The notes under the pieces: model-generated | Told to the model about the DNA's origin: nothing | Databases searched by the model: none | The model's input: only the letters and a program-made list of their open reading frames with translations | Origin: Methanobacteriota archaeon | Lineage (GTDB): Archaea > Thermoplasmatota > Poseidoniia > Poseidoniales > Poseidoniaceae | Direction of reading: 5' to 3' | DNA length: 6,983 nt | NCBI GenBank assembly: GCA_002689565.1 | Contig: NZGQ01000041.1 | Location: forward strand, 2,996-9,978 | Shown: piece by piece, positions 345 through 6,983 of the stretch | Position numbering within the stretch: position 1 is the stretch's first letter | Layout of the letters: every line of letters starts with the position of its first letter | Position numbers and translations under genes: made by a program

Positions 345-3300
345 TCACCTTAGATCTTCAAGACTAGTTCTGTACAAGTCCCATTGGTCTTCTTCCCAAT
401 CTTCGGGGATAGGTCCATCTAACCAGTTCAGAAATTCTTCAAGAGTCCACCCTTCAGGAATACGCTCGTCTCTTTTTGGTGCTTCATCCTCGTTGGTCCA
501 TGTCTCGGTTTTTGTTTCCTCGCGTGCGCGCACGCGCGAGATAAGTAAGGAGACGATTAGAATAAACACCAGTCCTCCGATTGCAATTGGTAATACCATA
601 GATTGAGAACTATCATCAGTCTCTTGTTCTAGTTCTCCGCAATCTGTTATACATTCTAGAGGTTCATCAACTATAATTTGTGCATTATAGTTTACAGTAT
701 TATCACTCCAATCCTTACAGGACAAATCTATCGTTAGATTCCCTTCAACATTTGTTGGCAGTAGCCAAGAGGACGACCAGAAACCAATGTCATCCAGGTC
801 TGAAACAACAGATTCAGGCGTGGTGTAAATTATTGATCCATTTACTTGATAGTTCACGAGGCATGTTGCATCTATTCCATCAGCATCATCCATTTCGACC
901 AGTATTTCCAGCAATGATGCGTGAGATAGGTTAGACGGGTGTGTAACCGTAATTTCAGGAGGAGAATGTAAGAACTCAAAATTGAGGTAGGAGATTGATA
1001 CAAGCTCGTCGATATCTACCACTCTAACTCCGAGTGACCCATTACCCGGTATGAACGAAGAATCCAATTGTATTCTGAAATGATGTGCAGAATTTTGCTC
1101 GGCCAAGTCATTGCCACATTGCATCGAGCCTTGACTCGGTGCTGATACAATCCAACCTAACTGTTCTAGTGTAGCGGTTACATCACTAATTTGTCTAGAT
1201 GAACGAATCCTAACCACTGCATCAGCGGTTTGGCCGAACATCAGTTCTTGGATTTCCACGCCCTCTTGACATAGGTCAATTGAAAGGATTTCAGGGGGAC
1301 TCAAAACGATTGGTGTTTGTATACTGGCTGAGTTACCAACACCATTGGCTCCAGTTATGTTCACTGATAGAATCAAATTTCCGCTATCGATACTTTCTGA
1401 TGTAGTCAATGGTAAAGTTACAATTCCATTTTCAAATTCAATTGGCATTGAATATGGAAGTTGCCCAGGCCACATGACGGTCAAATCCCCGTAAACATTG
1501 TCGATTGAATCGTCGTAATCAGTTACTGTCACTTCGATGTATTCTTCTCCTCCCCCGAGGACATTTTCTACTGGGTTACCACTGCTATCTACAATTCTTA
1601 ATTCGGCTTCAGGCGGTTCGTCAGCCACTGGAATTGTTCTTTGTTTGATGAAATCTCCGTCATGAGTTCTAAGTTCAATTTTGAAAGATTGCAAACTGGT
1701 TTCGGTTGGAAGTGTGAATGATGCAATGTAACAATGGTGTTCTGAACTACTACCTGAAACATAAGTCAGTCCGTCGATTTGCCCTCTTGTTGAAGTGATT
1801 ATTGGTGCATGTAATCCCCTACTATGGTCTGGATCAAGTACACATGCTTTGAGGGTTAACACGTACCCTCGTAAAACACCCTGCGTAGGTATTGAAGTGA
1901 GAACTGATGCACCACCCCAATTAGGGTCATCAACTCCTGAAACATGAACTCCAAACCAAAATGCAGGAGCGTCCCTAACCATCGCAATCCCATTTGAAAC
2001 CAGAATGGTGGAAATGTTGGATTCATCTGTTGCCACAGCCTTGAGGTCTAACATTCCCAATTGAACATCTGTTGGTAATTCGATTGTGGTCCACCACAGA
2101 TACCCATCCTGGCTACCCGTTCCCTGCCAAGTCCATTCTGTACTGTTGTTTCCAGATGTTATTCGCCATGCTAATGATACGTTCTGAATTCCGCTGTCAT
2201 CGAGGGCTTCGATACTGCAAACAAAACGATCACCTCTGCTATATTGAGAAGAGTCACAAAATAAATCTTCAATCTCGGGAGCACTGTTAGCCCACAGGGT
2301 TAGGTCAAACAAATTGTTGTCAATATTTCTTTCAGGATTTAGTAGAGATGATGCTTCCCATCTGATTGCAAGATTATTCCAACCCTCTCTAGATGTATTC
2401 AATTGTAATTTGATAATTTGTCGGCTGCCATTTTCAGAACCACTTGGTAGGGTCATGCTGTGATTAGTCAATACAACACTTCCTAATTTATCTAAAACTT
2501 TGAGATTTCCAATCGCTTGACCAGGGCCGATATTTTGCATGGCTATTTCTATTTCAAAATCATGGTATTGAGATACATTTCCTACTATTCTAACGTCGAT
2601 GATTTCGATATCATGAACTACGTCAGCATATGGACTCATTTTTGGATCGCCGACAACAACTCCCATCCAACTGATCATAGTATTTGCAGCAGCGTAAGAT
2701 TCTGCAAGGTTGTAACCGCTAGAATATGAAGGAAGTAATACACTTGGTGAAGATACAGCTGTAAGATATGGTTCATACACATAGCCTTTGATTCCACTTG
2801 CACCATCTTCTAGAATATCTGCAACTAGAGATTGACCATAAGAAGTACCCCATTTGAATGACCGAGCTCCTGTGCTAACTGCGGTTTCAACTATTGAACC
2901 ATTCACCCAATCCATGTGCGGCCTGATTATTCTAAGGACTGCAGAATCAATGAATAGGGAGCCATCTGTTGAGGTTGGAACTATGTCAAGGGAGATGCGG
3001 ATTTTCATTGAAGTTGCATTTTCATGAGGTCTAAATCTCACGTCTCTGGAATCCCACGATGTGGTAAAATCCTTTTTCGAAGACTCATTGTAACTCAATT
3101 CTGTGCCACTGGAATCATATGAAGTGACTTCGAGTTGATATTCACCAAATACGTCACCATCCCTTTTTCCATACGAATAGACTACCCAAGCGTGATTGGT
3201 AAAATTTTCTGGGATGCTGTGTGTCGTTTCTAAGTAAGCAACGTCCTGGCCATTTCCAGAATATGCACTACAGTTGTTCACAATATTTCTATTCAGTACG

Positions 3301-5459
3301 GTGATCGAACTATTATTGAGTGCTGTGTCCCAAATCATCACATTGTCAATCATACCTTCAAAGTATGAACTGTCAGCTCGATTGACTCCAAGTTTGTACA
3401 AGTCAAAATTGTTGAATGAACCATTCGGGTAGTAGTTCGAATTAACCAATACTCCATCCAAATACTGATTCACATTTCCTGATTCATAAGATGTAACCAA
3501 GTGGCTCCATTGCTGTGGTATTACGTCACCAAATACTTTTGTTTGGTTATTGTGCAGTCTCCATTTAGCGCTATAAATTGCATGCTGGAAAGAGAGGTTA
3601 GATCCAGCATTATCACCGATTGCAAATGTAGAGGAATAGTTCGATTGATTAGTTGAGTTAGCCCATACCCATTGACTGATTGTGAAATCACCACTCCAAT
3701 CATCAATATCGATTTTAGCATAGTCATCATCACCGTCAAACCACAAACAATTGCCATCTACACAGGTTTTCCAATTGCTTGCATTCATTCCATTTAGACT
3801 AAAATTCGTATCACTGCCAATCTCATCTAAGGTCGAATTACCGCTACCTTCCTCGAAATTCCATTGATGAATTAGGTTGTCTACTTGAGGAATGTAATCT
3901 CCATGTACGTAGAATGCTGAAGCGGGGATTGTTGCCTTTGTGACATTAGGTCCTTCCCAAGAGAATCTTAGTCCGTGAGGGCCACCGCCTTGGAAGAATT
4001 CAATTCTGAAATCATGTTCTCCTGCACTCAAATTTACATTTCCAGAATATTCTCTCATTCCGTGCATTCCGTAGTTTTGGATTAGACTTACTCCATTAAT
4101 CCAGAGTTCTGATCCATCGTCTGTGTTCAGATAGAATGTCCAATTGCCGGATTCAGGTACGTCAATTATTCCGCTGAATCTAGCACCCCAGTTATTTTTG
4201 AATCTGTCATCTAACCCAGGATATGGGTTTCCTGATGATGAATATGCGAGATCGCTTTCAACCCTCACATGGTCAGGCTCTCTATCAATCAAATCTGGCA
4301 TTTTAGATGAATCGAAACTAATCCCTTCATTATCGAAATATTCTGCGTAAATCCCTTGCAGCAAGTATCCTGTTTCTTGATTACACTGAGAAGAAATCGA
4401 GGCTTCAAATGCTCCATTTCCACCTTGTTTAGTCGAGGTTTGATAAGACCAGTTAAACGAATCTCCTGAACTTACAGATGGAGCTGATATATTCCAATGC
4501 CTAGATCCACTAGACCAACTTGAATCCAGAGTATCAAAACCACCATTTGCAAGGTAATTTTTATTCCAATTACCATCATTACTTCCCCAAGAAGCATATC
4601 CGATAACATTCGACATGTTGGTTATGAATTCAGTTTCTTCGTCAAAATAGACTGGTAAATTCATTGTTCCGTTCAGAGTAGTATTTGTGGCATACAAATC
4701 ATCATTCCAGAATTTGTATCCCGAATCATTCCTATTTGTCGCTAAATCAAGGATGTGTGTTCCTCTAGAGCCGTAAGAGTTGTTTGCCTTTTCAATCAAC
4801 TCTAGGGCCGTATCTACTGTGTATCCCGTTAATCTCGTTACAAGGAAAAAACCATATTCGTCTCTCGTGAATTCTTCCATCTGCTTTCCTGCCAAAGGTC
4901 CATAGTTGTGATTACTCCACATATCTTCTCCAATCTCGGAATCATACGCTCCACCTGCAAGAGAGATTTCTTGGTCGAAAGATGCTTTGTTGTTACCTCC
5001 GTTTATCCTTAAGGGGATTCCTTTGGTGGTAACGAGGTAGTTCAACTCAGTACCATTGTAGGTTGACAACATCATCTTGAAAGGGTCTAGGAAGTAAGTA
5101 TTGAACTGGTTTCGATTTATGGTTTCACCAGTAGGATTTGATGAGTTGTCGAAAATGAACACTCGATCTGCACTAATATTCCTCGCTGTAACGAATGCCC
5201 AACCTATCGTTCGACTAGCTTCGGAATTATTGTTAATCAATACTGCAACATCGCTGTAATCAACTGCAGTAGATAGGTTAAATCCGCTAGGTACTGCAAC
5301 AGTTCGTAAGGGAGTTTCGTTCCAGATGTCGTTTGCGACGCTGAAGCCATCAAAAATATCAGAATTAAAATCTTCATTTTCGACCTTCTGATTTGGCAAA
5401 TGTATGGTACTTATTACGAAAAGCGCGACTAAGAAAAGCGCTTTTCGAGGGGGGCTCAT
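345..5459 (-). CDS. Giant membrane-anchored surface protein: split TIGR03790-like domain with PA14 and LamG inserts, CARDB and Ig-like domains
   Basis: Residue numbers count from the upstream TTG (5513). I prefer the ATG at 5459 (residue 19), because it places a classic signal peptide at the start: SPPRK, then a hydrophobic core (25-37). That gives 1704 residues. Domains in order: TIGR03790-like first part (about 87-315, with LINNNSEASRTIGWAF, NYLVTTKGIPLRI, GYASWGSND); first half of a jelly-roll, carbohydrate-binding-like domain (320-382, NGGFD); PA14 (384-535, with GNWTFYLNTDDGSELWING); LamG/concanavalin-like (546-742); second jelly-roll half (750-865); TIGR03790-like end (868-963, with GIKGYVYEPYLTA and VVVGDPKMSPY); CARDB-like (968-1075); about five Ig-like domains (1077-1620). 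One transmembrane helix (1639-1659), a basic stop-transfer RVRAR and an acidic tail with a Trp repeat (1685-1718) follow. It has 14 cysteines, all outside the TIGR03790-like part, and more than 35 N-x-S/T sequons, so the bulk is probably extracellular and glycosylated. Likely role: surface binding of glycans, particles or cells. No enzyme activity is supported. Confidence 0.85.
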   Translation of the reverse strand: MSPPRKALFLVALFVISTIHLPNQKVENEDFNSDIFDGFSVANDIWNETPLRTVAVPSGFNLSTAVDYSDVAVLINNNSEASRTIGWAFVTARNISADRVFIFDNSSNPTGETINRNQFNTYFLDPFKMMLSTYNGTELNYLVTTKGIPLRINGGNNKASFDQEISLAGGAYDSEIGEDMWSNHNYGPLAGKQMEEFTRDEYGFFLVTRLTGYTVDTALELIEKANNSYGSRGTHILDLATNRNDSGYKFWNDDLYATNTTLNGTMNLPVYFDEETEFITNMSNVIGYASWGSNDGNWNKNYLANGGFDTLDSSWSSGSRHWNISAPSVSSGDSFNWSYQTSTKQGGNGAFEASISSQCNQETGYLLQGIYAEYFDNEGISFDSSKMPDLIDREPDHVRVESDLAYSSSGNPYPGLDDRFKNNWGARFSGIIDVPESGNWTFYLNTDDGSELWINGVSLIQNYGMHGMREYSGNVNLSAGEHDFRIEFFQGGGPHGLRFSWEGPNVTKATIPASAFYVHGDYIPQVDNLIHQWNFEEGSGNSTLDEIGSDTNFSLNGMNASNWKTCVDGNCLWFDGDDDYAKIDIDDWSGDFTISQWVWANSTNQSNYSSTFAIGDNAGSNLSFQHAIYSAKWRLHNNQTKVFGDVIPQQWSHLVTSYESGNVNQYLDGVLVNSNYYPNGSFNNFDLYKLGVNRADSSYFEGMIDNVMIWDTALNNSSITVLNRNIVNNCSAYSGNGQDVAYLETTHSIPENFTNHAWVVYSYGKRDGDVFGEYQLEVTSYDSSGTELSYNESSKKDFTTSWDSRDVRFRPHENATSMKIRISLDIVPTSTDGSLFIDSAVLRIIRPHMDWVNGSIVETAVSTGARSFKWGTSYGQSLVADILEDGASGIKGYVYEPYLTAVSSPSVLLPSYSSGYNLAESYAAANTMISWMGVVVGDPKMSPYADVVHDIEIIDVRIVGNVSQYHDFEIEIAMQNIGPGQAIGNLKVLDKLGSVVLTNHSMTLPSGSENGSRQIIKLQLNTSREGWNNLAIRWEASSLLNPERNIDNNLFDLTLWANSAPEIEDLFCDSSQYSRGDRFVCSIEALDDSGIQNVSLAWRITSGNNSTEWTWQGTGSQDGYLWWTTIELPTDVQLGMLDLKAVATDESNISTILVSNGIAMVRDAPAFWFGVHVSGVDDPNWGGASVLTSIPTQGVLRGYVLTLKACVLDPDHSRGLHAPIITSTRGQIDGLTYVSGSSSEHHCYIASFTLPTETSLQSFKIELRTHDGDFIKQRTIPVADEPPEAELRIVDSSGNPVENVLGGGEEYIEVTVTDYDDSIDNVYGDLTVMWPGQLPYSMPIEFENGIVTLPLTTSESIDSGNLILSVNITGANGVGNSASIQTPIVLSPPEILSIDLCQEGVEIQELMFGQTADAVVRIRSSRQISDVTATLEQLGWIVSAPSQGSMQCGNDLAEQNSAHHFRIQLDSSFIPGNGSLGVRVVDIDELVSISYLNFEFLHSPPEITVTHPSNLSHASLLEILVEMDDADGIDATCLVNYQVNGSIIYTTPESVVSDLDDIGFWSSSWLLPTNVEGNLTIDLSCKDWSDNTVNYNAQIIVDEPLECITDCGELEQETDDSSQSMVLPIAIGGLVFILIVSLLISRVRAREETKTETWTNEDEAPKRDERIPEGWTLEEFLNWLDGPIPEDWEEDQWDLYRTSLEDLR
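360..461 (-). repeat. Tandem Trp-motif repeat encoded in the cytoplasmic tail
   Basis: The last 40 residues hold two copies of a short motif, IPEGWTLEEFLNWL (from residue 1685) and IPEDWEEDQWDLYR (from residue 1702), offset by exactly 17 residues. Each has Ile-Pro-Glu-Gly/Asp-Trp followed by an acidic amphipathic stretch with a second Trp. The copies are similar at protein level only. They face the cytoplasm if the membrane helix is oriented with the signal peptide side outside. I recall similar PEGWT-type endings on Marine Group II membrane proteins, so this may be a lineage-specific docking or sorting tag. Confidence 0.6.
521..538. repeat. 18-base alternating pyrimidine/purine (Z-DNA-prone) tract with 16-base palindrome
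   Basis: Bases 521-538 alternate pyrimidine and purine without a break, almost entirely CG with one TG and one CA step. Bases 521-536 form a perfect palindrome (CGCGTGCG/CGCACGCG). The tract lies in the large gene and encodes the basic residues after the membrane helix (R1660, V, R1662, A, R1664) with consecutive CGC arginine codons. The surrounding sequence is AT-leaning. Such a tract can adopt Z-DNA or a cruciform under negative supercoiling. Confidence 0.75.
537..599 (-). other. Transmembrane helix coding segment of the large surface protein
   Basis: Residues 1639-1659 (MVLPIAIGGLVFILIVSLLIS) form one uncharged hydrophobic stretch, preceded by an acidic, Ser-rich linker (ELEQETDDSSQ) and followed by RVRAR. 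The charge pattern supports an outside N-terminal part and a cytoplasmic tail of about 60 residues. Confidence 0.85.
3288..3878 (-). other. LamG/concanavalin A-like domain coding segment
   Basis: Residues 546-742 match the pattern of LamG-like jellyroll domains: an opening LIHQWNFEEGSGNSTLDE, a central LWFDGDDDYAKI, FTISQWVWANS, then WSHLVTSYESGNVNQYLDGVLV and a closing FEGMIDNVMIWDTAL. A cysteine pair (584 and 589) sits just before the FDG motif. This fold binds sugars or proteins in other secreted proteins. The ligand here is unknown. Confidence 0.8.
3909..4364 (-). other. PA14 domain coding segment
   Basis: Residues 384-535 show the PA14 sequence pattern: GIYAEYFDNEG, then FSGIIDVPESGNWTFYLNTDDGSELWING and a late AGEHDFRIEFFQGGGPHGLRFSWEGPN. 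The core DDGS and WING match those of PA14 domains in adhesins, glycosidases and toxins, where a DD pair often coordinates calcium and sugar. It directly precedes the LamG segment and, with it, interrupts a jelly-roll domain. Confidence 0.85.
5433..5446. repeat. 14-base perfect palindrome in the signal-peptide region
   Basis: GAAAAGC/GCTTTTC is perfectly self-complementary and begins 13 bases inside the large gene when read from the ATG at 5459. Its left part (GAAAAGCGC) is repeated directly at 5418-5426, because the hydrophobic core uses the same codons for Ala-Leu-Phe twice. It may be coincidence from codon choice, or an mRNA hairpin or operator close to the start. Confidence 0.5.
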
Positions 5460-5501
5460 ACTTACTTGGACGGGATATTGTTCAAAGTCACTTCGGATGC
5501 T

Positions 5502-5508
5502 TGTATTA
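5502..5508 (-). promoter_or_regulatory. Possible TATA-like box for the large surface-protein gene
   Basis: On the minus strand the bases read TAATACA. Transcription from here would be expected to start about 26 bases downstream, near 5479, leaving a leader of about 20 bases before the ATG at 5459. This would fit the ATG start rather than the TTG at 5513. The match is short and could be chance. Confidence 0.3.
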
Positions 5509-5523
5509 GCCAAAATTGTGGTT

Positions 5524-5577: not shown

Positions 5578-6204
5578 ATGGTCGAGTTGTACATGGCGCG
5601 AACCTGCAAGTGGGGAATAGTTCGAGTCATCGGTGGAGACCTACATTTGCAAGAGGCAGATGTTGTAATTACACCTGCAAATAATCGCTTGTCAGGACGA
5701 GAAGGTTTGGATGCACAAATTCACAAAGCCGCTGGGGATGAATTGAGACAATTTTGCCGTGATATCAGTGTCGAGCAAAGAAAACTGAATCTTCCTCCTT
5801 GCCCTGTAACTACTAACGTAGTTTCTAAACCATATGAACTTGAAAAGCGTTTCAAGCACATCATTCATGTTGTTAGCCCAGATTGCAGAAGGCCAAATCA
5901 GGATGAAGCAAGAAGAGATTTGCTTCCAGCAGCCTACTTTAATCTCTTTGAAACACTGAAGGGAATGAAAGGTATCAAGGTAATTATGGCACCTCCTCTA
6001 TCCATGGGTGTATTCTCATACCCTCACAGGGAAGGTGCTCGTTTAACTTTAGAAACACTTCTTGGAATTATGGACGGAGAAGAAGATCCTGGAATCAAGG
6101 AATACAATATCGTGGTTAAGGAAAGGAATTTCATCAATAACATGCGAACCGTATATCGTGAATCAGAAGATCAACTTCCTGGAATAGATACCACGATGGT
6201 ATGA
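5578..6204 (+). CDS. Macro-domain protein (ADP-ribose-type nucleotide binding, possible hydrolase)
   Basis: This 208-residue protein is essentially one macro domain. Visible signatures are the first-strand GGDL (19-22) with ADVVITPANN (27-36, equivalent to the family NAAN loop), LSGREGLDAQIHKAAG (38-53) with the conserved Asp45 that packs against the distal ribose or adenine in MacroD-type enzymes, CPVTTNVV (75-82), HIIHVVSPD (94-102), and the phosphate-binding loop PPLSMGVFSYP (139-149). These are the family elements for binding ADP-ribose. Members remove ADP-ribose from proteins or nucleic acids, or hydrolyse O-acetyl-ADP-ribose. The exact substrate is not readable, and the glycine-rich loop is altered (SGREG in place of GGGG). 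The start at ATG 5578 is favoured by TATA spacing; ATG 5593 (MARTCKWG) is an alternative. The next gene begins 9 bases after the stop, so the two form an operon. Confidence 0.9.
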   Translation: MVELYMARTCKWGIVRVIGGDLHLQEADVVITPANNRLSGREGLDAQIHKAAGDELRQFCRDISVEQRKLNLPPCPVTTNVVSKPYELEKRFKHIIHVVSPDCRRPNQDEARRDLLPAAYFNLFETLKGMKGIKVIMAPPLSMGVFSYPHREGARLTLETLLGIMDGEEDPGIKEYNIVVKERNFINNMRTVYRESEDQLPGIDTTMV

Positions 6205-6208
6205 GGTG
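6203..6208 (+). promoter_or_regulatory. Ribosome binding site GAGGTG overlapping the macro-gene stop
   Basis: GAGGTG can pair with the anti-Shine-Dalgarno CACCTC end of archaeal 16S rRNA. It lies five bases before the ATG at 6214 and shares the GA of the TGA stop (6202-6204). This fixes the cyclase start and points to coupled translation. The first gene of the pair has no such site, in line with leaderless initiation. Confidence 0.75.
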
Positions 6209-6213
6209 TTCAA

Positions 6214-6983
6214 ATGGTCGATCTGCCAGCTATGGTGGCTTCGGCGATAGAGAGTGAACGCTCATCATTTACTGCTGCAGTATTACTTTCAAACAATTCC
6301 AGAACAGTCAAGAAAATTAGGGAGATACTTCCCAAAAAGTTGCGGATGGTCACACTCACTTCTTCTGCAAAGGTAAGTGAAAGTTTGAACGAATTAGGTT
6401 TCGAAGTAAAAATACTAGAAGATTCACTCTCTTCTCAAGGTTTGTCTGTATTGAATAGTTTACACGACATAATACTCCAAGGTCTAGGCGAAGGTCGTTT
6501 CACTTCTAATGATAGAATCTTGGCCATATTGGCAGAACCCATGAACGGAGTTATTGTTATCGAAGCAAGTACACTGGCTTCCAATAAATTAGCGATTATG
6601 GCAAATGAACATGAAATCGATATTGAGGTGCTGGCTAAACTGATGGAACTAGCCCGCTATATCGGCGGGCGTGGTCGTGAAGGTCATGCCGTAGGGGGTC
6701 TATTTGCGATAGGATCAGTACCTAAGCTTAGGAGATACAGTACTGCTCTTGTTCTAAATCCATTCAAGGGACATTCGGATAACAAGAGAGATGTGTCCCT
6801 CAAAAACAATCACGAAACTTTGGCGGAGTTTGCTTGGCTTGATGGAGCAATTCTGTTCAATTCAAAAGGAATCGCTAGCGATGCTGGAAGATACATCCAA
6901 GTTCCAGCAGGAATTAATCCAAAACCAGGAGAGGGAGGAAGACATCTTGCTGCTAGAGCGATTAGTCAACTCGCAGATTCAAT
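6214..6983 (+). CDS. dacZ: Archaeal diadenylate cyclase (c-di-AMP synthase), 3' end cut by window
   Basis: This frame stays open from the ATG at 6214 to the window end (256 complete codons). It was read by translating by hand. The second half is a DAC domain. It shows LARYIGGRGREGHAVGGLFAIGSV (about 147-169), NPFKGH (182-187), the catalytic LDGAILF with Asp210-Gly211-Ala212, and GEGGRHLAARAIS (240-251) with Arg243-His244 matching the RHR motif. DAC proteins condense two ATP into cyclic di-AMP as dimers meeting face to face. The N-terminal 100 residues (TAAVLLSNNSRTVKKIREIL) resemble the pyruvate-kinase C-terminal-like domain that precedes DAC in archaeal DacZ. I do not see DisA HhH regions. 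DacZ is about 270 residues, so only a short tail should be missing. c-di-AMP controls osmotic and potassium balance in archaea. It follows the macro gene by 9 bases with its own ribosome binding site. Confidence 0.85.
   Translation, partial: MVDLPAMVASAIESERSSFTAAVLLSNNSRTVKKIREILPKKLRMVTLTSSAKVSESLNELGFEVKILEDSLSSQGLSVLNSLHDIILQGLGEGRFTSNDRILAILAEPMNGVIVIEASTLASNKLAIMANEHEIDIEVLAKLMELARYIGGRGREGHAVGGLFAIGSVPKLRRYSTALVLNPFKGHSDNKRDVSLKNNHETLAEFAWLDGAILFNSKGIASDAGRYIQVPAGINPKPGEGGRHLAARAISQLADS

Follow-up and report, generated by a model that had tools for sequence, protein, structure and literature searches.

Proteins in which one domain interrupts a second domain that itself interrupts a third, in the order A1-B1-C-B2-A2, are documented, with ndhH as an example and up to six levels of insertion in cyanobacterial RNA polymerase (PMC13114784). 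For the protein family TIGR03790, the NCBIfam description gives no function, and a full-text search for the family name found no paper. Here, we analyze a gene for a TIGR03790 protein on the minus strand of a 6,983-nucleotide stretch from a Poseidoniaceae archaeon (contig NZGQ01000041.1; “the window” denotes this whole stretch). Its product falls into the same topology class as the documented nested proteins but differs from them in being an extracellular, lectin-type chain with living relatives at the no-insert, single-insert, and nested stages. We found no account of this protein among the literature matches listed, which leave preprints outside and cover subscription papers sparsely.

The best explanation as a whole, to which we assign a probability of roughly two in three, is that the gene encodes a protein that binds glycans at the cell surface of Ca. 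Poseidoniales and that arose through two domain insertions, one after the other. The doubly nested architecture itself is, by its sequence signatures, almost certain: a jelly-roll is inserted into a loop of the TIGR03790 core, and a loop of this jelly-roll in turn carries PA14 and LamG. From the N terminus, a signal peptide is followed by the first TIGR03790 part, the first jelly-roll part, PA14, LamG, the second jelly-roll part, and the second TIGR03790 part; a long stalk then leads to a single transmembrane helix and a tail that is short and acidic. The nested elements are as follows (window coordinates).

4575-5255, minus strand: TIGR03790 core, first part (predicted C25-like alpha/beta fold), ending in GYASWGSND; residues 87-313
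4386-4574, minus strand: jelly-roll, first part, resembling a carbohydrate-binding module (CBM), with an NGGFD start; residues 314-376
4383-4385, minus strand: Cys377, at one edge of the inner insert; kept in 79/80 aligned nested proteins
3879-4346, minus strand: PA14 lectin-type domain (Pfam PF07691); residues 390-545
3273-3878, minus strand: LamG/ConA-like domain, with Cys584 and Cys589; residues 546-747
3270-3272, minus strand: Cys748, at the opposite edge of the inner insert; kept in 80/80 aligned nested proteins
2916-3269, minus strand: jelly-roll, second part, CBM-like; residues 749-866
2625-2915, minus strand: TIGR03790 core, last part (VSTGARSF ... GDP); residues 867-963

The outer split is seen directly in the profile matches. 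The whole protein scores 113.4 bits against TIGR03790 (curated cut-off 67), and the core motifs of the family are kept. The score comes from two stretches, residues 88-315 on profile positions 2-229 and residues 867-949 on positions 237-316, which are ordered and do not overlap. Each stretch is significant when scanned alone (E 4.4e-19 for residues 87-315, profile 2-227; E 2e-13 for residues 867-949, profile 237-316), and TIGR03790 scans of the ~550 residues between the core parts and of the C-terminal 747 gave no match. The original prediction, made from the letters alone, had proposed such a two-part signature with two non-adjacent profile matches, and both were found. The motifs also lie where it had placed them: GYASWGSND ends at residue 313 and is followed by NGGFD, whereas STGARSF, GYVYEPYL, GYNLAESY, and VVVGDPKMSPY come after residue 867. 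The insertion point is right behind the SWGSND motif, as it is in the relatives whose sequence was read. At this point, 22 aligned compact members of the family have 6-12 residues, in contrast to 552 in the window protein.

To place this arrangement among its relatives, we surveyed 145 genomes of the phylum and 14 control genomes. TIGR03790 was found in 41/145 and 0/14, respectively (a wider listing gives a match in at least 95 of 389 genomes; the class tallies refer to the 41-genome sample, which includes G001-G003, the starting points of the search). Five of these genomes have no insert, 11 a single insert, and 24 the nested form; one (G012), in which the match ends too early, is left unassigned. 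Classes were called by the spacing of the TIGR03790 matches, plus the sequence where it was read: 14 of the 24 nested genomes were classed by spacing alone (about 1.5-1.65 kb) and 10 by sequence, and G061 (single) and G110 (nested), which are cut by contig ends, were classed from the remaining part. The insertion point measures 8-9 residues in no-insert relatives, 148-172 in single-insert relatives, where it holds one unbroken jelly-roll, and 550-559 in nested relatives. Because the 21 other nested loci measured all have a near-equal length there (551-560 residues), the insert is not a matter of chance. For each insert there are relatives without it at that position, and they back both steps: the outer insertion, since some relatives have nothing there, and the inner one, since others carry an unbroken jelly-roll. 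Among the 41 genomes, no jelly-roll holding only PA14 or only LamG was found, the sequence having been read for 10 of the 24 nested genomes. The suggestion that two levels of nesting in one chain are unusual is qualified by two points: the arrangement runs through a clade, and nested insertions are already documented (PMC13114784).

The inner split was followed with a hidden Markov model (HMM) profile built from 12 unbroken single-insert relatives. Their module is continuous, ~160 residues long, with the first Asn, the first Glu, one Trp, and an Asp near the end invariant in 12/12, and its profile matches the solved xylanase module 4xuo across positions 12-155 (E 1e-4). PF02018 (CBM_4_9) matches weakly in 5 of the 12 (best E 2.9e-4) and PF22637 (CBM_4_9_1) in 2, one match being above its cut-off. 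The unbroken relatives therefore resemble CBM_4_9-type modules (PF02018, PF22637, and xylanase CBMs); in the window protein, in which no Pfam CBM match was found at E up to 1, the jelly-roll is instead split by PA14-LamG. On the window protein, the single-insert profile finds the second half at 790-867 (E 1e-7; the best score, 46.2 bits, is in L055). Across the 22 nested proteins compared, the later part of the profile (from 52-88 to 158-160) matches the second piece in 22/22 (E 1e-6 to 5e-15), and the profile start falls on the first piece, in register, also in 22/22. Residues 316-866 as a whole score 25.4 bits, while 500 shuffles reached at most 6.7. In hhalign comparisons with the single-insert template, the second piece aligns to positions 53-158 (E 1.9e-15, probability 98.5%), the first to positions 3-22 (E 0.0013, probability 18%), and PA14 and LamG give a probability of 0.4%. 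This profile-profile placement of both pieces implies that PA14-LamG interrupts the jelly-roll module near position 50.

We further examined covariation in 143 nested proteins (effective number of sequences 84; mutual information with average-product correction, with 90% identity weighting as the sole kinship correction). Among the top 200 covarying pairs, 29 join the two core parts (8.0 expected) and 17 join the two jelly-roll parts (6.5 expected), while pairs between core part 1 and LamG (3 vs 24.6 expected) or PA14 (5 vs 16.8) are depleted. In addition, an AlphaFold2 model of residues 80-970 (891 residues) has a mean predicted local distance difference test score (pLDDT) of 84.9 and a predicted template modeling score (pTM) of 0.68. 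The original prediction expected one jelly-roll and one alpha/beta fold in such a model; the model has strands in each of the two jelly-roll pieces and alpha/beta elements in each of the two core pieces, which bears on their content but not on strand pairing. The question of one fold therefore rests on covariation and on the natural intermediates. A fold search with the same model returned almost exclusively LamG and PA14 matches, so that the absence of the jelly-roll from them is uninformative.

Several observations weigh against the nested interpretation. The first jelly-roll half is never significant alone in the 22 nested proteins (independent E-value 0.098 to 6.3). When it is combined with the second half, the score rises by a mean of 0.44 bits (0.2 in the window protein), compared with -0.53 for shuffles, and 1 of 23 control segments beats it in the joined-halves score (2.34 bits), which makes this score indecisive. 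Jelly-roll part 2 also shares more top pairs than expected with LamG (26 vs 16.9) and PA14 (18 vs 11.5), and in the AlphaFold2 model, with its pTM of 0.68, pLDDT falls below 50 at the core motifs (311-313, 880-894, and 910-919). The weak first half and the modest pTM would suit ordinary domains in a row, with the two TIGR03790 stretches being separate degenerate repeats or the product of a duplication. We consider this highly improbable and already contradicted: the two stretches cover complementary profile positions (2-229, then 237-316) without overlap, five archaeal loci without the insert run straight through, and the core halves covary across 550 residues. A tandem-domain reading was rejected on the same complementarity and on the existence of uninterrupted relatives. 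For the split jelly-roll, then, the predicted arrangement is supported by the matched second half, the unbroken single-insert relatives, and the covarying halves, with a first half that is weak alone.

Both inner domains exceed their Pfam cut-offs and lie between the jelly-roll pieces, as predicted. The PA14 match spans residues 439-531 (E 6e-17, 62.2 bits vs a gathering score of 24) and the Laminin_G_3 match residues 593-737 (E 6.4e-16, 59.3 bits vs 27.6). The PA14 domain also matches the structure 6qe7 of the anti-sigma factor RsgI3 (E 4.3e-25), MpPA14 of a Marinomonas adhesin is among the Foldseek matches of the AlphaFold2 model, and Asp465-Asp466, kept in 80/80 nested proteins, corresponds to the Ca2+- and sugar-diol-binding Asp-Asp pair of PA14 lectins; unlike in those lectins, PA14 here is inserted within another carbohydrate-binding-type module. 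The only cysteines in residues 80-970 are 377, 584, 589, and 748, of which 584 and 589 form a close pair in LamG. The proposal that Cys377 and Cys748 sit either side of the inner insert was confirmed, and a disulfide between them, closing the neck of the insert, is likely, given that both are conserved at the insert edges and that no such flanking pair exists in the 12 single-insert modules, each of which has at most one cysteine.

The order of events was examined in a maximum-likelihood tree of 53 core sequences, with the insert excluded (16 nested rows; 22 compact rows including the outgroup). The nested form makes up one clade, requiring 1 change (support 100/100, and present in 100% of 200 bootstrap trees), so by the core tree the inner insert was gained once. 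Six single-insert rows join this clade (85/97, not starred). No insert is present in the 22 compact proteins, which were obtained by a protein search and are presumably bacterial, because one bears the name Bacteroidota and several have a Por_Secre_tail. A simple two-step history is opposed by the single-insert rows, which do not form one clade but require 6 changes on a tree with several weak forks, and one of which (L039) is placed near the compact rows (94/71). This scatter suggests that the outer insertion may have been repeated, or that the jelly-roll may have been gained early and then lost.

The core itself, modelled on a compact homologue, is predicted to have the caspase/gingipain fold of peptidase C25 in clan CD, where His and Cys lie at the ends of neighboring strands (PMC4357240). 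This assignment faces contrary results. The Foldseek match of the compact homologue to gingipain has a TM-score of only 0.48, and VIA-align covered only the Foldseek top 1000. Peptidase_C25 (PF01364) is unmatched in 25 compact TIGR03790 members at E up to 10, and hhalign of TIGR03790 against same-phylum C25 proteins found nothing (probability 0.6%), with a poor C25 profile, built from translated match stretches in L061-L080, of which two with internal stops were dropped, three were empty, and several were wrongly cut near contig ends. Membership in C25 was thus sought by Pfam and profile comparison and not found. In contrast to gingipains, the window core (residues 87-313 and 867-963) contains no cysteine and hence no C25 catalytic cysteine, and the window protein has no PF01364 match at E up to 1. 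The motif at the presumed His-loop position is YASWGSND, without His. Peptidase_C25 genes as such occur in 65/141 genomes of the phylum, often with at least 10 matches per genome; none was found in four genomes with the nested TIGR03790 gene (G001, G018, G027, and G036).

Lacking this cysteine and the motif His, the core could be an inert pseudo-peptidase scaffold, with only the lectin stack acting, as an adhesin. A precedent is offered by pseudo-orthocaspases, in which Tyr-Ser replaces His-Cys (PMC6426788), and loss in the main branch of TIGR03790 is suggested by a separate branch (P0112, P0116, and P0241-P0358; named members Bacteroidota), which has His and Cys at the positions occupied by two serines in the main family, both being present at the aligned positions in 50/116 rows. 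That branch may hold active peptidases. We regard an inert scaffold as a real possibility that falls somewhat short of even odds, since a dead site should drift, whereas the motif residues are invariant bar one row each across 25 compact and 80 nested proteins. The invariant SWGSND, VST..R.F, Q of GQS, EP, and GDP motifs would instead suit a new clan CD-type enzyme or ligand-binding domain that relies on serine or other residues and is directed to a glycosylated substrate by the nested lectins. The insert lies between the two motifs, at the presumed cleft rim, His and Cys being placed on neighboring strands in clan CD (PMC4357240). We rate this alternative slightly below the inert scaffold: no clan CD enzyme of such a kind appears among the literature matches listed, the residue equivalence to C25 is inferred, and the profile comparison was negative.

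The remaining features of the gene are consistent with a product that is, by sequence, a secreted, membrane-anchored cell-surface protein of ~1,700 residues.

345-5513, minus strand: whole open reading frame, 1722 codons, opening on TTG
600-2624, minus strand: extracellular stalk, fast-evolving; residues 964-1638
531-599, minus strand: transmembrane segment at the hydropathy maximum; about residues 1639-1661
348-530, minus strand: cytoplasmic tail, short and acidic, tryptophan-rich over 348-524 (PEGWTLEEFLNWLDGPIPEDWEEDQW)

The TTG start (5459-5513) is probably wrong; the ATG at 5459 (residue 19), directly ahead of a signal-peptide-like stretch, is the likelier start, giving 1704 amino acids, because many relatives have 1704 residues. 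No Pfam match above its cut-off was found in the stalk (residues 964-1638), and identity to the window protein in 16 relatives is 25-65% over residues 964-1722, compared with 67-86% in core part 1. Orthologue tails were recovered in 3/5 genomes. In a fourth (G125), the nested gene runs off its contig, and a 260-residue frame with a similar tail, on a separate contig, may be its missing end. In the L017 record, the nested gene (7992-13259) is split across several reading frames.

The 17 loci sharing the protein are labeled Euryarchaeota, euryarchaeote, or Poseidoniales/Poseidoniaceae. Head-to-head with the gene (window 5578-6981) lie genes for a macro-domain protein and then a DacZ-like diadenylate cyclase; the divergent macro-domain neighbor is kept at 17/17 loci, and the DacZ-like gene lies next to it at 15/17.

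Since the loop that carries the lectin stack joins the motifs that would take the places of the His loop and Cys loop in clan CD, the stack would stand at the rim of the presumed core cleft, with the putative Cys377-Cys748 disulfide closing the neck of the inner insert. Genes for flagella, thrombospondin, and flotillin have been used to argue for adhesion in Poseidoniales (PMC6461757), and diatom-cell adhesion has been reported for one PA14 lectin (PMC8092209). Together with the conserved Asp-Asp pair, the latter leads us to read the stack as a means of glycan-dependent attachment or substrate capture, which would attach the cell, or a substrate bearing sugars, to particles or to phytoplankton. 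Glycan binding by the predicted lectin modules is probable. The core might bind or process a peptide or glycopeptide through a non-canonical site (Ser311, Ser880, and neighbors) rather than a Cys-His dyad, although an active non-cysteine site is less likely than not. In its boldest form, which we consider unlikely, TIGR03790 would be a widespread unrecognized clan CD family whose main branch exchanged Cys-His for an invariant serine-rich site and whose inter-motif loop became a growth point for lectins nested in lectins; in Poseidoniales, a disulfide-necked lectin tower above a live non-cysteine site would dock the cell on glycoprotein-coated particles and process the bound material.

A gingipain-type fold would provide the first mechanistic frame for TIGR03790. 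The series from no insert through single to nested allows the gradual build-up of a nested protein to be observed and tested, and a conserved surface protein can now be named for an abundant, uncultured group of marine archaea.
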